Origin: Candidatus Acetothermia bacterium
GTDB lineage: Bacteria > Bipolaricaulota > Bipolaricaulia > Bipolaricaulales > Bipolaricaulaceae
Reading direction: 5' to 3'
Length of the DNA stretch: 64,000 nt
NCBI GenBank assembly: GCA_024653305.1
Contig: JANLFW010000002.1
Location: 11,993-75,992 of the forward strand
Position numbers and translations under genes: made by a program. The notes beneath the pieces are model-generated. The model ran no database searches and had not been told where the DNA came from. It was given only the letters and a program-made list of their open reading frames with translations. The stretch's first letter is position 1, and the number at the start of each line of letters is the position of its first letter. Positions 50,157-60,886 of the stretch are shown in pieces.

Positions 50157-50162
50157 TACAAT
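50157..50162 (+). promoter_or_regulatory. -10 box of the subtilase operon (leaderless type)
   Basis: TACAAT followed after 6 nt by the ATG at 50169; no Shine-Dalgarno and no clear -35. Confidence 0.5.
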
Positions 50163-50168
50163 GCCGAC

Positions 50169-52325
50169 ATGCCCCGGTGGTTCCTGATCCTCGCCCTGGT
50201 CGCCTCCCTCGCTGGGCCGGCCTGGGCCGGCCTGGAACGCCTGGATCCCGTGCTGCGCGCGCTCGTCCACGCCCAAACCGAGGGCGGTCCGGCACAGCTC
50301 CTCGACCCTCAGGTGCTCGTCCAGATCGCATCCGCGTCCGTGGACGGGGTCCCGCTCTACCCAGAACAGGTCCCGCCGGCCCCGGACCAGCTGCGGGTGC
50401 GGGTGTTCGTGCAAACGCGCACACGCGCGGCCGCCCACGCCCTCCCCGGGTTCCAGCCCCGCCAGGCCGTGGGGCGCCTCGCCACCGGGGAGGTGGCGGT
50501 GCCGGATCTCCCGGCGCTTTCCGACCACCCGGAGGTGGTGTACGTCGCGGCCAGCCGCCCCCTTTCCCCGACCCTAGACCTGTCCGTGCCCGAGGTGGGG
50601 GCCCCGGCGTTGTGGTACAGCACCCTCAGCACCACCGGCCAGGGGGTGATCGTGGGGGTGGTGGACTCGGGGATCGACGTCCTGCATAAGGACTTTCGTA
50701 CTGGGCGTGCTGGGGACGAGCTGAAGACGCGGATCGTCTACCTATGGGATCAGACCGCCCCCGGCGGGTGGATGCCGCCGTGGTGGGGGGACGCGTTCAC
50801 GGAACGTCGCTACGGCCGCGTGTTCACCCAGAACGACCTTGAGGCGGCCATCGCCGCCGGGACCTCCCCGACCACGGACACCCTGGGCCATGGCACCCAC
50901 GTCGCCGGGATCGCCGCGGGGGACGGTACCTCCTCCACCCTCGGCCTGCGCGGGGTGGCCCCGGGGGCGGACCTGGTGGTGGTGAAGACCACGTTCTACG
51001 AGGATGACGTGGTGGACGGGGTGCGGTTCGTGTTCGAGGCGGCGGCGACGCTGGGGAGGCCGGCGGTGGTGAACCTGTCCCTGGGCGGACACGCCGGGCC
51101 CCATGACGGGACGTCCCTGTTCGAGCAGATGCTCGACGCCCTCGTGGACCGCCCTGGGCGGGCGGTGGTCGTGTCCGCGGGGAACGAGGGCGACAGGAAG
51201 GTCCACGTGGGGGCCGACGTATGGGCCCGCACCACGTGGCACCTCGTGGCCGAGAAGGGGATCGTGGGGGTGCAGCTCTGGCACCCGGCGGCGGCGGGCT
51301 TCACCGTGAGGGTGACAGCCCCCACCGAGGAGACGGTCACCGCCCCCCCCGGCACCACCCGGTGGGCCCCCACCGCCTCGGGCTCGGTGCAGCTGGACAA
51401 CGCGGTTTCCATCCCGCCCAATGGGGACAGGGTCATCTACATCTCCCTCATCGGGGCGGAACGCGGATCGCGGTGGACGATCACCCTGGACCCCGTGCGG
51501 GGCGGCCGGGTGGACGGGTGGGTGGAGGACCCCGCTGCGGGGTGGTTCATGGAAGGGGACGGGGACATGGCCATCGCCGAGCCGGGCAACGCCCGCCGGG
51601 TGATCACCGTGGGGGCGTACGTCACCAAGAACCGGTGGACGTCGCTCGCGGGAGAGCAGTCGGTGACCGAAGGCTACCCGCTCGGGGCGCTGGCCCCGTT
51701 CTCCTCCCGCGGCCCGACCCGGGACGGCCGGCTCAAGCCGGATCTTGCCGCGCCGGGGGCGTGGATCGCCTCCGCCCGATCCCGGGACGCACCGCCCTCA
51801 CCGTGGCTAACCCTCCCTGACCGGGAGCACTCCATGCTCCTTGGGACGAGCATGGCCGCGCCCCACGTCACCGGAGCGGTGGCCCTGCTCCTCTCCCGCA
51901 ACCCCGGCCTGGATTGGCAGGACCTCAAGAAGGCGCTCACCGGCGGGGCGCGGCGAGACCCGTTCGTGGGGCCGGCCCCCAACGACGCGTGGGGGGCGGG
52001 GAAGCTGGACGTGCCGCGGGCGGCGGACCTCGTCTCCGGCGGGGGACCGGGCGAGGCTTCGGTGCTTGCGGCCCTGGCCAACCCGGTGGACCGGGAGGCC
52101 GTGTTCCGCTATCGGTGGCCGGAGGGGGCCACGTGGGCGGAACTGCACGTGTACGATATTGCCGGAAACCGCCTCGCCGCGTGGCGGCTGACGGGGCGGG
52201 AGGGGGAAATCCGGTGGAACCTCCGGGCGGCGGATGGCCGGCCGGTGGCGAGCGGCCTGTACCTCGTGGTCCTCGTCACCGACCGCGGGCGGTCAGAGGT
52301 GGTGCGGTTGGTGGTGCAGCGATGA
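50169..52325 (+). CDS. Secreted subtilisin-family (S8) protease with C-terminal FlgD/Por-type domain
   Basis: A 718-residue serine protease with a Sec signal (FLILALVASLAGPAWA). The triad is complete: D166 in VGVVDSGIDVLHKDF, H241 in LGHGTHVAGIAAG and S561 in LGTSMAAPHVTGAVAL. A PA-like or beta insertion (~375-480) lies between His and Ser. The last ~85 residues form a separate domain starting ANPVDREAVF and containing VYDIAGNRLAAWRL and ADGRPVASGLYLVVL, the pattern of FlgD-Ig/Por sorting domains that mark type IX secretion substrates in Bacteroidetes. Downstream overlaps with a PorV-like barrel gene suggest a surface-secretion unit. Confidence 0.9.
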   Translation: MPRWFLILALVASLAGPAWAGLERLDPVLRALVHAQTEGGPAQLLDPQVLVQIASASVDGVPLYPEQVPPAPDQLRVRVFVQTRTRAAAHALPGFQPRQAVGRLATGEVAVPDLPALSDHPEVVYVAASRPLSPTLDLSVPEVGAPALWYSTLSTTGQGVIVGVVDSGIDVLHKDFRTGRAGDELKTRIVYLWDQTAPGGWMPPWWGDAFTERRYGRVFTQNDLEAAIAAGTSPTTDTLGHGTHVAGIAAGDGTSSTLGLRGVAPGADLVVVKTTFYEDDVVDGVRFVFEAAATLGRPAVVNLSLGGHAGPHDGTSLFEQMLDALVDRPGRAVVVSAGNEGDRKVHVGADVWARTTWHLVAEKGIVGVQLWHPAAAGFTVRVTAPTEETVTAPPGTTRWAPTASGSVQLDNAVSIPPNGDRVIYISLIGAERGSRWTITLDPVRGGRVDGWVEDPAAGWFMEGDGDMAIAEPGNARRVITVGAYVTKNRWTSLAGEQSVTEGYPLGALAPFSSRGPTRDGRLKPDLAAPGAWIASARSRDAPPSPWLTLPDREHSMLLGTSMAAPHVTGAVALLLSRNPGLDWQDLKKALTGGARRDPFVGPAPNDAWGAGKLDVPRAADLVSGGGPGEASVLAALANPVDREAVFRYRWPEGATWAELHVYDIAGNRLAAWRLTGREGEIRWNLRAADGRPVASGLYLVVLVTDRGRSEVVRLVVQR

Positions 52326-53137
52326 TCCGGAGCGTGGCGGCGCTGGTCCTCGCCGTGGCGGTGGCGGGCCTCGGCCAAGGGCATGTGGGGGGCGGCGTCC
52401 TGTTCGCCCTCGCCGGGGGCGCCCGGTCGGCAGGGATGGCCGGGGCCGGCCTGGCCGTGGCCGACGGCGCAGGGCTGTTCCTGAACCCGGCTGCTCTAGT
52501 GGGCACGGCGGGATGGGAGGCCCTGTCCGCGTACGCGCGCCAGTTCGGGGCCGCCGACTTCGCCCTCGTGTCCCTGGCCGGCCCCGGGCTGGGCGTGGCT
52601 GCGATGGCCCTGGATGCCGGGTCCATCGGCCCCGGGCTCGCGTTCCGGGTGGAGGGGGCGGTGGCCGCGGTCGGGATCCCCATCTACGGCGGGCTCTCCG
52701 TGGGAACGCGGGCGCGGCTGCTCCATCCGGTGGCCCCGGTGGAGGCGCTGGGGTGGGCGGTGGACGCAGGGGTGCTCTGGCAGGGCCCGGTCCAGGTGGG
52801 CCTCGTTTGGCAAGGGGTGCTTTCCCAGCCGGCGTTCCCAGGGGAACACTGGCCGCGGACCCTGGCGGCGGGCGTCGCGGTCCCGTTCCGATGGGGCACC
52901 TTCCTATCCGGAATCGTGGCGCTGGACGTGACCGGCCTCGCCGCGGGGGCGCCAGCACTGGCCGCGGGCGGCGAGCTGTGGGCGGGGGGCATCGCGGTCC
53001 GGGCAGGCATAACCGCGAATTCCGTCTCGTTCGGTGCCTCAGTCCGGTGGAGCTCGTTCCAGCTCGACTGGGCGGCGGTGGCCCACCCCGTGCTCCCGGC
53101 CGCGTTTCGCGTATCCTTAACCGTGAGGTTTCCATGA
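52322..53137 (+). CDS. PorV/PorQ-like outer membrane beta-barrel protein
   Basis: A 271-residue barrel protein with a signal peptide (SVAALVLAVAVAGLGQG). The N-terminal motif GGARSAGMAGAGLAVADGAG then LFLNPAAL is the PorV/PorQ family signature (GxRxxGMGGA...NPAGL). The rest alternates Gly/Ala-rich amphipathic strands, and the C-terminus VSLTVRFP fits an outer-membrane strand. ATG 52322 overlaps the subtilase as ATGA, and its stop overlaps the next gene the same way. PorV proteins shuttle substrates from the type IX translocon; by position this could act on the subtilase, which is inference. Confidence 0.75.
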   Translation: MIRSVAALVLAVAVAGLGQGHVGGGVLFALAGGARSAGMAGAGLAVADGAGLFLNPAALVGTAGWEALSAYARQFGAADFALVSLAGPGLGVAAMALDAGSIGPGLAFRVEGAVAAVGIPIYGGLSVGTRARLLHPVAPVEALGWAVDAGVLWQGPVQVGLVWQGVLSQPAFPGEHWPRTLAAGVAVPFRWGTFLSGIVALDVTGLAAGAPALAAGGELWAGGIAVRAGITANSVSFGASVRWSSFQLDWAAVAHPVLPAAFRVSLTVRFP

Positions 53138-56100
53138 CAAAAGCGTGGCTTATCTTGATCGTGCTCATCGGTTTCGCCGGGCTGGCCCAGGTTCAGACCC
53201 CGTCGTTCACCCTCACCGTGACCGGGGAAAAGACGTGGACCGTACGGTTCGGGATCGGCGCCCCGGAGCTCCTGGCGCTGGAGAACATCCCCCCTGCTCA
53301 GCTCGTGTTGGGCCAATCCCTTTGGGCCGAGGTCACCGGTATCGCCCTAGGGTTCCTGACCCTCAAGGCCAGCTTCAACGATCAGCTCGGCTCGGCCTTC
53401 CAGGACTTCGTGCTCCTGGTGGACCGCCCCCCCTGGGAGGGGCAGCTCGGGCACTTCGTGGTCGGGGCGGATGGGGCCGAGCTCGGGGTGTACAACAAGA
53501 AGCTCCTCGGGGCACGGCTGGGCTACCACGGGGATGGGGTCACGGTGAGCGGCCTCGCCGCACGCCTGGAGGGGATCTCGGAGTCCCTTACCTTCCGCGG
53601 GGAGAGCGCCCGCGCTGAGGCCCTGTTCGCGACCGAGGACCCCGACCGCCCTTGGCAGCCGGCCCCGTACCTACGCCACGTGGAGGGCCTGTACTCCTGG
53701 CCCCTGCGCGCCCCGTTCGTGGAGGGGTTCTCCGAGGCCCAGTTCCAGTTCCTCCTGTCTCAACCCCTGTGGCGGTTCCTCGGGAATTGGGGCCTCGGCT
53801 ACCTCCAAGAGGTGATCGAGGAGGCTTCGGCAGTCCCCCTCACCACAGGCGATTTCCTCGTGCTGCGCGACGAGGGGGATGTCCTGATCCTGCAGGCCGC
53901 GCCGGCGGTGCTCCTCCGCCGTCGGGTCCAGGACACCATCGAAGCCTACAACGACCAGCATGGCCTCTCCGGCCCGGATCGGAAAACGTACCCGTTCATC
54001 GAGGGGAGCGCACTTGAGGAGAAGTTCCTGGCCGAGCTTTCCCAATTCGTAGAGATTACGGTGGACGAGGAAGGGTACGCGTTCTCCGCCGCCGCGCGGC
54101 GTCGCTACCTCCTGCTCGGGGAGCGGGACGTGATCGAGGGGACGCTCACGCTCCTCGTGCGCCTGCCCGGGGAAGAGGCGTTCCGCCCCATCGACGACCC
54201 GGCCCTGGCCGACTTCGCCTGGTCGTTGTACCCCGCCGAGGGGGTGTTGCGCATCGCTTTCCCCGACACGTTCTTCCGTGCCGGGGCCGCGGTGCGGGCG
54301 GCGTTCGACTACCGGCGGGAGGGGAACGTGTTCATGCTCGGGCTGTCCGTGGTCCCCGGGTCGGAACGGGTGTACCTAAACGGGAAGCCCCTCGTGCGGA
54401 ACACGGACTACACCATCGACTATGAGGTCGGGATGCTGATCCTGTTTGCGCCCCTCTCCCAGACCGACGAGCTGCGGGTGGACTTCGAGCGGCAGCGGGG
54501 GGGCTTGGGCGGGTACACGGAGTACGAGCGGAACTTCTTCGGGCTGACGGTGACCGTGCCCGGTCTGGACGGGTTCCAGCTTTCCCTGTCCCGGGCGGCC
54601 GATTCCGGCCGGCCGGAGCCCACCAGCCGGACCATGCCCAACACCCACTCCGTGGCCGCGCTGCGCCTGGCCGGGGAGGTGGCGGGGTGGAAGTACCGCC
54701 TGAGCTTGGGCGGCTCGGAGAACGTGTTCCCCGCTGACGACAACGCTCGCATCCCCGCCCCGAACCGGATCAACGCCATCGCCCGCGTCCAGGCGGCGGA
54801 CGGGGAGTACGTGGTGTTTGCCCACCAGAACGGGATCACCGTATACCGGGGCGGGGCCTTCTCCGGGTATGGGGGGGCGGAGGGGATGTCCGGGCGGGCG
54901 GCGCGGGATCTCCTGGCGCTTTCGGATCGGCTTCTCATCGCCACCGACGTCGGGCTGACCGTGGTCCGCCTGTGGGAGGCGTCCCCGTTCGATCGGGTAC
55001 GGAGCTGGATCCGGTTGGACAAGACAAGGGACGACCTGCCGGGGAGCGAGGTCCTGGCGCTGGCTCAAGGTGGAGGTCAGGTGTTCTTGGCCACCGACGA
55101 GGCGGTGGCCGTGTTCGCCCCGGCGGACGTGGAGGCCCCACGCACCTGGCGCACGTGGGAACTGCCCGCCGACGCCCGTCCCATGTCCCTCCTCTGGGCC
55201 GGGGGACAACTGTACCTGGGGACGGAGGACGGCCTGTACGTACAGGAGGGCGAGGGGTGGACACAAGTGCCGGCGGTCCCTGGACCGGCGCGCGCCCTCC
55301 TCGCCCGCGGGGACGAGCTCCACGTGGCCACCGACGAGGGGATCCGGGTGCTGCGCGGCGGGACCGGGGCCGGCTGGATCGCCATCGGCAAGAGCGTGTA
55401 CGGGATGGCGATCTGGGACGGGGCGTTATGGTATGCGGCCGAGGACGGCCTGTGGCGGGATGGAGAGCCAACTCCGGCGGTGGCTGGGCCGATCACCGCA
55501 GTGGGGGTGGGGAGCGGTGGACTGTGGGCCGGCGGCCGGGCCGATGCCGAGTTCCGCCTGGACCTGTGGCGGCTTGCCCCACAACCGGAGCGGTATCCGC
55601 CGGGCCTGACCAGGATCGACGGCCGTGACCTCGGCCGGTTCAACGACATCCCGGAGGCCGACCATACCCGGCTCGGGGTGACGGCGGGCCTGACCCTCGC
55701 CCGCGACGTGGGCGATTGGCGGTGGGAGCTGAGCGGCAGCACCCGCTCCCCGGGGTATGAGGTCATCGGGCAGGCCGGCCGATCCGACTCCCATGGGGTC
55801 GGGTTCGTGGCCCGCTACCTCAAGGAGGAGAGCGTCCGCCTCGAGGTGCGCGGGCGGTGGGACGTGGTGGACCTGTTCACCACGCCCCGTGCCCGGTTGA
55901 GCGGCGGGCTCGACTGGAGCTGGTCCGAGGGGGCCAAGGTCTGCCTCACCCTCTCCCCCACCCTGACCGGGATTGGCCCGTCCGAGGCAGCCCGCCTGGA
56001 CCTGGACTACCGTGCCGGCATCTCCGGGGAATGGCAGGCCCTATCTGGGCAACTCGCCTTAGGCGGAAAGCTCACGGCCCCGGATCCGTACACATCGGGG

Positions 56101-56961
56101 CAGCTCATTGGACAACTCGCGTTTCGGCCTGCCGCGGGTTGGAGCGTAGAAGGGAGTTGGATCCGGCCGTTCCGTAGCCGCGGCCATCCTGGCGATGAGA
56201 GCGTGACCGTCACCACCAAGTGGACGGGTGGAGTGGCCATCGCCTCGTGGAGCGCCAGTTGGCAGGAGGTCCTGCGCCACCGCCTGCTCACCGGGGACTG
56301 GCGGGAGGAGCGGACCATCCAGGGCGAGATCCGGTGGACGGCCTGGTCCATCGGCGACGCACGCCTCGCCCCGCGCCTGACGGCCTTTTGGAAGGACACA
56401 GGCGAGCAGCGTTGGGAGGTCCGTGGGATCGCCCAGCTCAGCCAGCCCGCGGCATCCTGGCAGGCCGAGGTCGGCGTTGGCCACGGGTATCGGCCGGCCA
56501 CGGACCGCACCGACCGCGTGCTTTCGCTCGCGCTCACCTGGGACTACTCGGGTTGGGGCGAGGTCCGACCGAGCTTCCGCTGGCAGCGATCGTGGCAGAT
56601 CCTCTCGCATCCCCGCTATCCCGATCAGGTGACGGAGGACCACCAGGCCACGTTGCGCGTGGCCTGGGAGCCGCGGGCGGCATGGCGCAACGACCTGACC
56701 CTCACCTGGAAGGGCCGAGACGGGAGCCTGACCCTCACCGATCGGCTGTCCTGGCCCGTGGAGTTCGGCACGCTAGGGATGGAGGCCAGTGCCACGTGGA
56801 AGGAGGGGCGCCTGGAGGGGAAGATGGCCGCTCAATTCGGTCATTCCCTGAGCGACATGTGGAGCCTATCGGCCGAGGCCGGCTACGCGTTCGGGTACCA
56901 GCCGGCGACGTCATTCCGCCACGCCCTGTTCGGGGGGGTGACCCTGGCCGCCCGGTTCTAG
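53134..56961 (+). CDS. Very large outer membrane protein with SprA-like motif, beta-propeller and C-terminal barrel
   Basis: A 1,275-residue exported protein (signal AWLILIVLIGFAGLAQ). Residues ~1-410 are beta-rich and unassigned; around residue 410 is VYLNGKPLVRNTDYTIDYEV, a motif seen in SprA-type and other giant outer-membrane proteins. Residues ~545-840 form repeated short blades (GQLYLGTEDGLYVQEGEGW, DELHVATDEGIRVLRGG, ALWYAAEDGLWRDGE), i.e. a Reg_prop-like propeller. Residues ~850-1275 are alternating strands with many W/R/E and end in LAARF, an outer-membrane C-terminus. No close family is recognised. It starts by ATGA overlap with the PorV-like gene and shares its CTAG stop with the convergent barrel gene. 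Confidence 0.65.
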   Translation: MTKAWLILIVLIGFAGLAQVQTPSFTLTVTGEKTWTVRFGIGAPELLALENIPPAQLVLGQSLWAEVTGIALGFLTLKASFNDQLGSAFQDFVLLVDRPPWEGQLGHFVVGADGAELGVYNKKLLGARLGYHGDGVTVSGLAARLEGISESLTFRGESARAEALFATEDPDRPWQPAPYLRHVEGLYSWPLRAPFVEGFSEAQFQFLLSQPLWRFLGNWGLGYLQEVIEEASAVPLTTGDFLVLRDEGDVLILQAAPAVLLRRRVQDTIEAYNDQHGLSGPDRKTYPFIEGSALEEKFLAELSQFVEITVDEEGYAFSAAARRRYLLLGERDVIEGTLTLLVRLPGEEAFRPIDDPALADFAWSLYPAEGVLRIAFPDTFFRAGAAVRAAFDYRREGNVFMLGLSVVPGSERVYLNGKPLVRNTDYTIDYEVGMLILFAPLSQTDELRVDFERQRGGLGGYTEYERNFFGLTVTVPGLDGFQLSLSRAADSGRPEPTSRTMPNTHSVAALRLAGEVAGWKYRLSLGGSENVFPADDNARIPAPNRINAIARVQAADGEYVVFAHQNGITVYRGGAFSGYGGAEGMSGRAARDLLALSDRLLIATDVGLTVVRLWEASPFDRVRSWIRLDKTRDDLPGSEVLALAQGGGQVFLATDEAVAVFAPADVEAPRTWRTWELPADARPMSLLWAGGQLYLGTEDGLYVQEGEGWTQVPAVPGPARALLARGDELHVATDEGIRVLRGGTGAGWIAIGKSVYGMAIWDGALWYAAEDGLWRDGEPTPAVAGPITAVGVGSGGLWAGGRADAEFRLDLWRLAPQPERYPPGLTRIDGRDLGRFNDIPEADHTRLGVTAGLTLARDVGDWRWELSGSTRSPGYEVIGQAGRSDSHGVGFVARYLKEESVRLEVRGRWDVVDLFTTPRARLSGGLDWSWSEGAKVCLTLSPTLTGIGPSEAARLDLDYRAGISGEWQALSGQLALGGKLTAPDPYTSGQLIGQLAFRPAAGWSVEGSWIRPFRSRGHPGDESVTVTTKWTGGVAIASWSASWQEVLRHRLLTGDWREERTIQGEIRWTAWSIGDARLAPRLTAFWKDTGEQRWEVRGIAQLSQPAASWQAEVGVGHGYRPATDRTDRVLSLALTWDYSGWGEVRPSFRWQRSWQILSHPRYPDQVTEDHQATLRVAWEPRAAWRNDLTLTWKGRDGSLTLTDRLSWPVEFGTLGMEASATWKEGRLEGKMAAQFGHSLSDMWSLSAEAGYAFGYQPATSFRHALFGGVTLAARF

Positions 56962-57821
56962 AAGCTCACCCCGAACCCGAACCGGTGGGAGGGCGCGAGC
57001 CAGGGGTGGGTCAGGAGGGCGTAGTCCACGGCGAACGCCTGCCATCGCACGCCCAAACCCAATGACCACTGGACGAGCCCGCCCGGGAGGCGCACCCCGC
57101 CCCGGACCTCGAGCTCCCGGAACGGGGCCCAGCCCAGGCCCATCGCGAGATAGTCGGTAGAGAGGTCCAGGACGCCGAGAAATCCGGCCGGGTGGATCCA
57201 CGCCGCGCCCAGGGCGAGGTCGGTGGACCACCCTTCGCCCCGCTCCCCCAACCTCGCGCCGAACCCGAGCTCACGGATGGCCAGCCCGGCCCGCACTTCC
57301 CCGAACGGCGTGGACAGCCGGCCCAGGAGCCCGAGGTCCAAGGCGATCCCGCTTCCGGACGCGTCGGCCACCGTGATCTGGTGGTGCTTCAGCGCCAACC
57401 CCAAGGCTGCCGGGAACGGGAAGAGTCCGGAGAGGAACGGGATGCGGCGGGCATCCAGCCCAACGCCCAACACCAGGCCAAAGGTGGAGAAGGTGAGGGG
57501 GTCCCCGGCCGGGTCGGCGATCCCGCCCACCGAAAGGTAGGTCAAGCCCGCGCCCCATCCGGGCAAGGCCCCGGCCAGCCAGCCCACCGTGTACAGGTTG
57601 AGGGCATTGGTCACGGTGGAGTCGGCCCGCAGCGAGGGCACCCACGCCAGCCCGGCTGGGTTCGCGAGCAGGGCCTCGCTGCCTTCGGCGAGGGCGGTAT
57701 ACGCCCCGCCCAGGCCCATCGCCCGCACCCCAAGCCCCATGTCGAACGGGTTCAGGAGGCCCTGGCCGAGGGCGGTCGCCCCCACCAGAACCCCGATCGT
57801 TGCCAGGAACAGTTTGCGCAT
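56958..57821 (-). CDS. Second PorV/PorQ-like outer membrane protein
   Basis: A 287-residue barrel protein with a signal peptide (KLFLATIGVLVGATALGQG). The PorV/PorQ motif is more typical here: MGLGVRAMGLGGAYTALAEG followed by SEALLANPAGLAW. The C-terminus HRFGFGVSF ends in Phe, as expected for an outer-membrane barrel. The ATG has AAAGGAG at 7 nt and lies 11 bp after the PKD-repeat surface protein, so the two form one operon. Its TAG stop shares a CTAG with the stop of the giant outer membrane protein on the other strand. Confidence 0.78.
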   Translation of the reverse strand: MRKLFLATIGVLVGATALGQGLLNPFDMGLGVRAMGLGGAYTALAEGSEALLANPAGLAWVPSLRADSTVTNALNLYTVGWLAGALPGWGAGLTYLSVGGIADPAGDPLTFSTFGLVLGVGLDARRIPFLSGLFPFPAALGLALKHHQITVADASGSGIALDLGLLGRLSTPFGEVRAGLAIRELGFGARLGERGEGWSTDLALGAAWIHPAGFLGVLDLSTDYLAMGLGWAPFRELEVRGGVRLPGGLVQWSLGLGVRWQAFAVDYALLTHPWLAPSHRFGFGVSF

Positions 57822-57832
57822 CGCCCACTCCT

Positions 57833-60800
57833 TTAGCGCAGGACCAGGATCCGCCCGACCTCGGACCGGATCGTCCGGCCGTCCTGGGTCGCCGTGATCA
57901 GGTAGAAATAGAGCCCGTTGGGCACGGTTCGGCCGGCCCCGTCCTCAAGGTCCCAGGTGAACTGGGCCCCCGCTATGTCGCGCTCCACCACGGGCCGGCC
58001 GAGGGCGTCGAAGACGCGGATCTTCACGTCCGTCGCCCCCGATGGGAGGAAGACCTGGATCCGGGCCTGGGCAGCGGCTGGGTTATCGAGGAGCCGGGTG
58101 CCGATCTCCGCTCCGCCCTTGGCCCGGACGTAGAGGTCGAGGGTTCGCCATGCACTCCACCCGGCCTGGTTCCGGGCCCTCACCTTGACCATATACAGGC
58201 CCGCCGCGGGGTAGGTGTGCGTCACGGGCGGGGCGCCGGTGGCGTCCACCGTGCCGTCGCCATTGAAATCCCATTCCCAAGCGGTGACCGGGTCACCCTG
58301 AGGGGCGGTGGCAGTGGCGGTGAGGGTGACCGGCTGGCCCGCCTCCGGGACGGCGGGGCTGGCGGAAAGGGCGGTGACCGTGGGCGGCGGTGGCGGCGGA
58401 GGAGCGCCGATGGTGATGGTTTTCTCCTTCGTGCCCTTCGCGCCCCGGCGGTCGGTGACCTCGAGCTTCACCGTGTAGGTGCCGGCCGCGGCGTAGGTGT
58501 GGGTGGGGTTGGCCTCGGTGGCGGTGCCGCCGTCGCCGAACGTCCAGGCGTAGGTGAACGGGGTATCCGGCGGATCGTCGGGGTCGGTGGCGGTGGAGGT
58601 GAAGGTGACGGCCTGGCCGGCGGCAGGGCTTGTGGGGGACCAGGTGAAGTCCACCGTGGGCGGCTGATTCGGGCGCAGGGTGACTGTGATCTGTTTCGTC
58701 TTCTTCCCTTCCAGGCCCTTGGCGTCCCGGACGAGCAAGGTCACGGTGAACGTGCCGCCGTCGGGGTACTTGGTCTTGGCCGTCTCCGGCGGCCCGTTCC
58801 GCTCCACGTACCTGGGGCTCGCGCCCTCTCCGAAGTCCCATTTGGAGTACACGATGGCATCGCCATCGGGGTCGGTGATCGTCCCTGGAGTGAAGGTGAT
58901 CTCTTGGCCGTACTGAGGGTTAGCCGGGCTCCAGGTGAAGTCCTGGATCACCGGCGGGTTGTTGACCCCGATGTCGAAGGTGGCGCCTCGAACCGCCGTG
59001 GTATCGCCGCTCATTGTGCCCTCGGTGTAGGAGAAAACGGTCTCCAGGCGCACGGTCCGGCCGGCCACGGTCTTGTCGGGGCCGGCGAGGGTGACCCAGA
59101 TCCAAAGTTCCGCCTTGGCACCGTCGGCCACGGTGTTGTTGGCGGTGGGGGTGATGGACACCCCCGAATTGCGGAACCCCGTGAGGTTCGTGGTCTCGCC
59201 GAGGAGGGCCCCGTTCTCCCCGGCAAGCCGCACCTCGAGCTTGGCGAACTGGGTGTCGCTTGCCGTGCCCACGTTCTTCACCCGGACCCGGGTGATGGTG
59301 ACTCCAGCTGTATTGGCGTCCTTGTCCTCGAGCTTGATCTTCTGGGCCACAAACCGCTGGGTGGAGTAGACCGTGCGCGGATCGATGGCGATGTTCTCCA
59401 CCACCTCAAACCCCGCGGGGTAAATGGCCACCGTCTCCGGGTAGGTAACCGCCGCCGTGGCATAGGCCGGGCTTGGAGGGGAAGGCACTGGGGGTTCTTC
59501 GCTCCCCACACGGACTTCTGGTCGGATGGTACGGCCGGTGGTGGCTAGGGGCGAAACCCGATACTCGATGGTGATGGTCGCTTCCTTTTCGTCCGCGACA
59601 TCGGTAGGGGTGACCTGGATCCAGCCGCCTATGCGGAAGTCGAACCCCGAAGGCCAACTGGAACGGACCCGGGTGGTGCCCACCCACACCGTGAACCCCG
59701 CGATGTCCGCGGTCTCCGCGGTTCCCAAGTTCTTCACGTAAATGTGGGTGATCTGGACTTTATTCCCGTTGTAGTCCCGATCGGCGACCCAAATCTTTTG
59801 GGTCAGGCGCTCACCGGGGTTGATCCCCGGTCCTGGAGGCGGTGTGGATATCTCCTCGATTTCTTCAAACCCAGCCCGGCGGATGGTCCAAGTCGTGGGC
59901 CCGGTCACCGTTTGGTTTATGGTCTGGCCCGTGTTTTCCTCGACCTCAAGGACGACCGCACTCTTAAGGGTCCTCTCGTCCCGCGGGTACGTGGCGTCCC
60001 CCGATTCGTCCCCCGATTGCACCGTGATGGTCACGGTTATCGTGAGCTCAGTCCCGTCGGGGAAGCTCGTGGGCAAAGGTGGCTTCGTAGCCGTGAACAC
60101 TACACCTGTTCCATCCCATCCGGTGGCCGATTCCGTAGCAGCGGTGTAGGTGGCCGTGCCGTCATTGATCTGGACCTCGATGGACTGGAGGTCGGAGGCC
60201 TCGGCGGTAGCACCGTTGGCCCGCTTCACCGTGACCTTGTTGACCTTGACCGCCCGGGCGTTGGCATCGAGGTCGCGAATGCGGAATTTCTGAACCGGTG
60301 CGGAGTCCCCGGGGTTGAGGTTGTCGGGGTCCGGGGACTCGTCGGTGATCACTTCAAACCCGGCCTTCCGGATGGTCTCGGGCCGGCCATCCTGGAGGAA
60401 GCCGCTGTTCCCCGATTCAGTGGCGGTGTACCAATAGGCGTTCGTCTCCAGAACCACGGTCTCCCCGCCCGAAATTGCGGCGGGGCGAGCTACGTCCACC
60501 AGCACCCAAAGATACCGCGTCTGGCCCTTCGGGACGGTGAAAGAGGTAGGAATGACGATCCCGACCTGAAGGTCTTTACCAGTGGTGGGCGCTCGGACAG
60601 CTGTCGTGGCAGGGGCAGAAGTGGGCAGGGTTGGGGTCGTGGATTCCAGGGCCAGGGCGATCTGGGTGATGTGGGAGGAGGTGGCGGTGCCCGTGTTCCT
60701 CACCTGGATGAACTCGATGGTGGTATCCCGGGCGGAGTCCCCTTTGACGGTGATCACCTGGACGATGATCCCAGTATCACCAGGGTTCAAGGCCTCCCCG

Positions 60801-60886
60801 CCAAAGGACCTGTCGGTAAACGTGGGGGCGGCCACCGCGGTCACGGCCAGCCCACACAGGACCAGGCTCAACAGGGTCTTCTTCAC
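57833..60886 (-). CDS. Surface protein with four ~150-residue repeats, PKD domains and C-terminal FlgD/Por-type domain
   Basis: A 1,017-residue secreted protein with a Sec signal (KKTLLSLVLCGLAVTAVAA). Four related units (residues ~20-640) each carry NPGD/Q...D.D.N and V(K/R)N.GTA motifs, for example IEFIQVRNTGTATSSHIT, ITHIYVKNLGTAETADI and ITRVRVKNVGTASDTQFA, and are joined by AGFEV(I/V) linkers. Three PKD modules follow (VIQDFTWSPANPQYG, TVDFTWSPTSPAAG, WEWDFNGDGTVDATG). The last ~85 residues repeat the Por/FlgD pattern (DNPAAAQARIQVFLPSG, VFDALGRPVVERD, GRTVPNGLYFYLI). The start is a GTG with GAGGAGG. It precedes the second PorV-like gene. Confidence 0.8.
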   Translation of the reverse strand: MKKTLLSLVLCGLAVTAVAAPTFTDRSFGGEALNPGDTGIIVQVITVKGDSARDTTIEFIQVRNTGTATSSHITQIALALESTTPTLPTSAPATTAVRAPTTGKDLQVGIVIPTSFTVPKGQTRYLWVLVDVARPAAISGGETVVLETNAYWYTATESGNSGFLQDGRPETIRKAGFEVITDESPDPDNLNPGDSAPVQKFRIRDLDANARAVKVNKVTVKRANGATAEASDLQSIEVQINDGTATYTAATESATGWDGTGVVFTATKPPLPTSFPDGTELTITVTITVQSGDESGDATYPRDERTLKSAVVLEVEENTGQTINQTVTGPTTWTIRRAGFEEIEEISTPPPGPGINPGERLTQKIWVADRDYNGNKVQITHIYVKNLGTAETADIAGFTVWVGTTRVRSSWPSGFDFRIGGWIQVTPTDVADEKEATITIEYRVSPLATTGRTIRPEVRVGSEEPPVPSPPSPAYATAAVTYPETVAIYPAGFEVVENIAIDPRTVYSTQRFVAQKIKLEDKDANTAGVTITRVRVKNVGTASDTQFAKLEVRLAGENGALLGETTNLTGFRNSGVSITPTANNTVADGAKAELWIWVTLAGPDKTVAGRTVRLETVFSYTEGTMSGDTTAVRGATFDIGVNNPPVIQDFTWSPANPQYGQEITFTPGTITDPDGDAIVYSKWDFGEGASPRYVERNGPPETAKTKYPDGGTFTVTLLVRDAKGLEGKKTKQITVTLRPNQPPTVDFTWSPTSPAAGQAVTFTSTATDPDDPPDTPFTYAWTFGDGGTATEANPTHTYAAAGTYTVKLEVTDRRGAKGTKEKTITIGAPPPPPPPTVTALSASPAVPEAGQPVTLTATATAPQGDPVTAWEWDFNGDGTVDATGAPPVTHTYPAAGLYMVKVRARNQAGWSAWRTLDLYVRAKGGAEIGTRLLDNPAAAQARIQVFLPSGATDVKIRVFDALGRPVVERDIAGAQFTWDLEDGAGRTVPNGLYFYLITATQDGRTIRSEVGRILVLR

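Follow-up and report, generated by a model that had tools for sequence, protein, structure and literature searches.

A probable outer-membrane half of a type IX-like export pathway in Bipolaricaulota

The five genes of the locus and the cargo-type proteins

The window, a 64,000-nucleotide stretch of a Candidatus Acetothermia genome assembly (1.59 Mb in 73 contigs, completeness 95%), contains two converging operons. The plus-strand operon encodes a secreted subtilase, a PorV-like barrel (A) and a giant SprA-like outer-membrane protein, each pair of neighbouring genes sharing 4 bp (ATGA). The minus-strand operon encodes a PKD-domain surface protein and a second PorV-like barrel (B) with a spacing of 11 bp, and the operons meet where the stop codons of the giant protein and barrel B genes overlap by 4 bp. 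A Sec-type signal peptide was recognised by eye at the N-terminus of all five proteins, and among the relatives a 93% identical copy is present in a Candidatus Bipolaricaulota MAG. The initial annotation had described converging operons with two C-terminal domain (CTD) proteins, two PorV-like barrels and a 1,275-residue SprA-like protein, and all five genes were found. The subtilase gene is present as annotated except for its start, which moves from 50157 to the best start codon, an ATG slightly inside at 50169.

The subtilase (718 aa, 50169–52325, plus strand) matched Peptidase_S8 at 1.4e-42, and its catalytic residues D168, H243 and S563, numbered according to P0001, which has two extra leading residues, were invariant in an alignment of 14 homologs. 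Its FlgD/Por-type CTD (52080–52322, plus strand), the proposed sorting signal, was identified from a CTD alignment and a score of 17.9 bits against TIGR04183, the T9SS type A sorting domain; this is below the cut-off of 23 bits, while a 93% identical ortholog in genome G026 scored 26.6 bits, above it. The PKD-domain protein (1,017 aa, 57833–60886, minus strand; PKD_4 1.2e-41) carries a type IX-like CTD (57833–58084, minus strand) that scored 27.9 bits against the same model, with weaker matches to CHU_C and FlgD_ig. Both proteins are proposed cargo, and both carry the type IX-like CTD expected of them, the PKD-domain protein by its own score and the subtilase by that of its ortholog. TIGR04183 was matched above its cut-off in 31 of 40 family genomes with up to 15 matches per genome, the matches being weak at 20–37 bits. 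Tails of the FlgD type and members of the PorV family are also present in phyla that have no known T9SS.

The PorV-like barrels and the giant SprA-like protein

Barrel A (271 aa, 52322–53137, plus strand) and barrel B (287 aa, 56958–57821, minus strand) are the proposed shuttles of the subtilase and the PKD-domain protein, respectively. Their scores against NF033709 were 25.3 and 42.7 bits, singly below the cut-off of 90 bits, as were those of the PorV-like proteins in all 40 genomes. A profile built from 44 relatives of both barrels and searched against the PDB gave a full-length match to PorV (6h3i_F) at 2e-11, followed by FadL-type proteins (TodX/CymD) at an E value of 0.1. PorV_fam was matched by 37 of the 44 family members (best 1.5e-29) and TIGR03519 (PorP/SprF-like) by only one, at an E value of 0.056. 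Barrel B was modelled with 14 strands (pLDDT 89.4, pTM 0.85), and in the Foldseek comparison PorV (6h3i_F) ranked first with a TM-score of 0.74, ahead of FadL. The features of the PorV/PorQ family are therefore present in model and alignment, namely a 14-strand FadL-type barrel and an NPA plug motif, of which N54 and P55 are invariant and A56 nearly so. Both small barrels are PorV-like, as had been proposed, with PorV a clearly better match than FadL by profile and by fold.

The giant protein (1,275 aa, 53134–56961, plus strand) is the proposed translocon. Searched singly, it gave TIGR04189 as its sole significant match (27 bits, residues 401–455), and single-sequence searches of the PDB with this protein and with the barrels returned nothing useful. 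All 24 relatives put to the test also matched TIGR04189, and no member of the family reached its equivalog cut-off of 200 bits. A1, a profile restricted to close relatives, missed SprA in the PDB; SprA was revealed after distant members were added (A2) and the propeller was cut off (A3, the N-terminal 545 residues in 35 homologs). Against all PDB sequences the family profile then gave SprA as the top match, with an E value of 3.3e-6, in two collinear stretches in the same order. Residues 27–146 (53212–53571, plus strand) aligned with SprA 145–269, and residues 397–446 with SprA 694–745 at the SprA signature GSERVYLNG..L.R..DYTIDYE.G.L (54334–54498, plus strand), where TIGR04189 also matches. 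The sequence match is local, covering approximately 120 + 50 residues with 29 bits. No match to SprA_N (PF14349), a domain that is repeated in the SprA family, was obtained in the source genome, nor in the control genomes.

The AlphaFold2 model of the giant protein covers residues 76–1275 (pLDDT 86.7, pTM 0.54) and shows long antiparallel strands at both ends as assigned by DSSP, including a C-terminal barrel half of about 25 consecutive long beta strands (55666–56958, plus strand). When the model was compared with the PDB using Foldseek, ranks 1–4 were all SprA (7.3e-19 to 3e-11), ahead of the regulator propeller 3va6 (4.4e-11) and of LptD (about 1e-9). The TM-scores against SprA are low (0.26–0.28), and the overall barrel shape therefore remains a prediction. 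The giant protein is a distant relative of SprA; the suggested comparison gave SprA both as the best PDB sequence match of the family profile and as the top four fold matches, and the protein models as a beta-barrel of very large size, not the small barrel or adhesin lacking SprA similarity that would have spoken against the initial annotation. Adhesin-only and LptD-like readings of the protein were rejected because of how the matches ranked.

Between the two barrel parts, at approximately residues 545–830 (54766–55623, plus strand), lies a two-component-regulator-type beta-propeller that is missing from SprA. The insert was identified by profile matches to 4a2l (6.4e-14) and 3ott (1.5e-12) and by the Foldseek match to 3va6. 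If all 25 C-terminal strands span the membrane, strand parity would hint that the propeller sits outside the cell, in the position of the SprA cap.

Conservation and linkage of the genes

The SprA-like gene was found in 89 of 100 genomes of the phylum, in 37 of the 38 good genomes and in 37 of 39 genera; the family is mostly single-copy and intact and has clusters of invariant residues. TIGR04189 was matched by 77 of the 100 genomes and the gene set is kept down to 28% identity, so the locus is not a product of chance. Wherever the contig reaches far enough the order CTD cargo, PorV-like, SprA-like is nearly constant. The same order occurs in a Fraserbacteria MAG and in Bacillota-labelled MAGs, in which the cargo protein differs and resembles the cargo of the locus in the CTD region only.

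In the Bacillota-labelled MAGs (L067, L069 and L072) a 28% identical SprA-like gene adjoins a PorV-like gene and another kind of CTD cargo; these MAGs may be diderm Firmicutes or may be mislabelled. Bipolaricaulota-type copies were also seen on contigs named Thermotoga sp., Chloroflexi and Caldisericota (L044, L049 and L068), which are probably misnamed or mis-binned MAGs.

Pairing of cargo and shuttle genes extends beyond the locus. Across 40 genomes, 47 of 73 PorV-like genes lie directly behind a same-strand CTD match at a distance of 81–381 bp, compared to a chance expectation of 0.07. The source genome has four such pairs, two at the locus, a third on contig C31 and a fourth on contig C28. 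Inspection of five representative loci by eye revealed no motor-like or other conserved partner beside the triad.

The cargo on C28 is a 1,359-aa protein (L120:3775–7854) containing two near-identical tandem copies of a repeat of approximately 270 aa, and a transposase-like gene lies nearby (L120:1–717). An expanded set is present in G031 (T3Sed10_47, Bipolaricaulaceae; contigs L021, L042, L050, L053 and L054), which has several SprA-like copies that begin with an acidic N-terminal extension, 15 CTD matches and about 10 PorV-like genes. This set would be useful for tests of shuttle specificity.

Motor, sortase and a proposed route of export

The components PorL/PorM (GldL/GldM) and PorU, for which a search had been suggested, were not detected. 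The GldL and GldM profiles matched none of the 40 family genomes, a result that is uncalibrated as neither profile matched any of the 14 control genomes. The broader MotA/ExbB family was missing from all 40 family genomes and all 38 good phylum genomes, with 8 of the 14 controls positive, and from 99 of the 100 phylum genomes. The lone phylum genome with MotA/ExbB-family proteins carries two in tandem (G074:C17:17720–18605). PorU-type C25 peptidases were likewise absent from the source genome, and the only C25 (gingipain/PorU-type) peptidase among the 40 family genomes lies at G024:C48:15645–17009 (L116). Omp85 was present in 17 of 17 good family genomes, and a closed Bipolaricaulota genome has been described as lacking LPS genes and as possibly that of a simple diderm (PMC6092417); together these support the presence of an outer membrane, and the lack of LPS genes is in line with the missing LPS-attaching sortase.

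The homology of the translocon and shuttles, the CTDs, the gene order and the absence of the MotA/ExbB family, all obtained by computation, point to the locus being the outer-membrane half of a type IX-like export pathway of Bipolaricaulota, to which we give a probability of roughly 0.8. The best reading is a divergent, minimal type IX-like export with one translocon, one shuttle per cargo and the known motor missing. The suggestion that a type IX-like system, divergent or minimal, could be encoded outside the Bacteroidetes is thus supported by the SprA-like, PorV-like and CTD evidence, and the word minimal applies literally, with no GldL/GldM match, no MotA/ExbB-type motor and no C25 PorU-type peptidase in the source genome.

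The transport itself, the order of its steps, its energetics and its function would be as follows. Cargo proteins (the subtilase, the PKD-domain protein and others elsewhere) would pass the inner membrane via Sec. Inside the pore that the giant SprA-like barrel would form, a dedicated PorV-like barrel would recognise the CTD of the cargo, and by analogy should pick up its neighbouring cargo by this domain and carry it out of the gate; the putative assignment of each shuttle to its cargo follows gene order. The PorV-like protein would leave the gate together with the cargo, which would remain on the cell surface or be released from it, and several cargo-shuttle pairs may be served by the one translocon gene. 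The known T9SS motor and PorU are apparently missing, and translocation would therefore proceed without a proton-motive-force motor or by an unrecognised one; release might be powered without a motor, by folding of the cargo outside or by shuttle exchange. Since the motor is missing, the outer half of the machine may work, or may once have worked, without it. We tentatively suggest, at somewhat less than even odds, that Bipolaricaulota perform a motor-free type IX-like export for which a propeller-fused SprA-like gate and one PorV-like shuttle per cargo suffice, and that this may be an ancestral core to which the motor and sortase were added later in Bacteroidota.

A full type IX machine of the Bacteroidota kind, driven by a motor of GldL/M-like and ring proteins that are encoded elsewhere and too divergent to detect, appears unlikely. 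As the SprA and PorV homologs score well under the family cut-offs, GldL/M could have diverged to the same degree; the GldL/GldM HMM searches had no positive control, and the T9SS motor is known to energise the release of PorV-bound cargo (PMC10994853). Such a motor would nevertheless have to escape detection in 38 of 38 good genomes by the broader MotA/ExbB search, which recognised 8 of 14 controls, and none of the loci examined has a motor-like neighbour. Still less probable is a SprA-like protein of other function, such as an LptD-like lipid transporter or surface scaffold that shares only fold elements with SprA, accompanied by PorV-like barrels that act as anchors or FadL-type transporters. 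LptD and other large barrels do match the model (about 1e-9), the CTDs are weak and the closed genome of the phylum has no LPS genes (PMC6092417), but sequence and fold both clearly place SprA first, PorV is clearly better than FadL, and the CTD-PorV-SprA gene order is conserved. The absence of the motor, and that of a C25 peptidase from all but one of the 40 genomes, would also suit an ancestral T9SS that has degenerated and lost secretion. This is very improbable, given that the SprA-like gene is near-universal, intact and mostly single-copy, that its invariant residues are clustered and that each genome has several cargo-shuttle pairs.

Comparison with known type IX systems

The locus is not a T9SS as defined, because the motor components are missing and the SprA homology is below the family cut-off, and it should be named type IX-like. 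Of the defining components a PorV-type shuttle and CTD cargo were found, while the GldL/GldM motor and PorU sortase were not, and the likeness to T9SS would be confined to the outer-membrane half. According to a recent paper, T9SS genes are confined to the FCB phyla (PMC11285876), and a literature search whose coverage excluded most subscription journals turned up no description of a T9SS in Bipolaricaulota. A near-universal SprA/PorV/CTD core in a non-FCB phylum widens the history of T9SS and raises the question of whether a SprA-PorV pair is able to export cargo without a rotary motor. It also offers a candidate route to the cell surface for proteins of Bipolaricaulota, for which a single extracellular protease was described in the closed genome (PMC6092417).

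Among the closest known counterparts is SprA/Sov with PorV of Flavobacterium johnsoniae (6H3I/8GL6), with which the locus shares a giant barrel bearing the SprA signature, a 14-strand PorV-like partner and CTD cargo. The giant protein is only half the length of SprA (1,275 compared to 2,403 aa), contains the propeller insert and has a PorV-like gene directly upstream; the genome differs from those with T9SS in having no detectable motor and no PorU, and the phylum lies outside FCB. The gene arrangement resembles that of T9SS type B cargo genes in Flavobacterium, which commonly have their own shuttle gene directly downstream, giving one shuttle per cargo (PMC12618676), although the type B shuttles are PorP/SprF-like and those of the locus PorV-like. 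The two-component-regulator-type propeller is shared with PorZ of the T9SS attachment complex, to which the match is weak (5m11, E 0.39). The propellers of PorZ belong to a separate CTD protein, whereas that of the locus is built into the SprA-like barrel.
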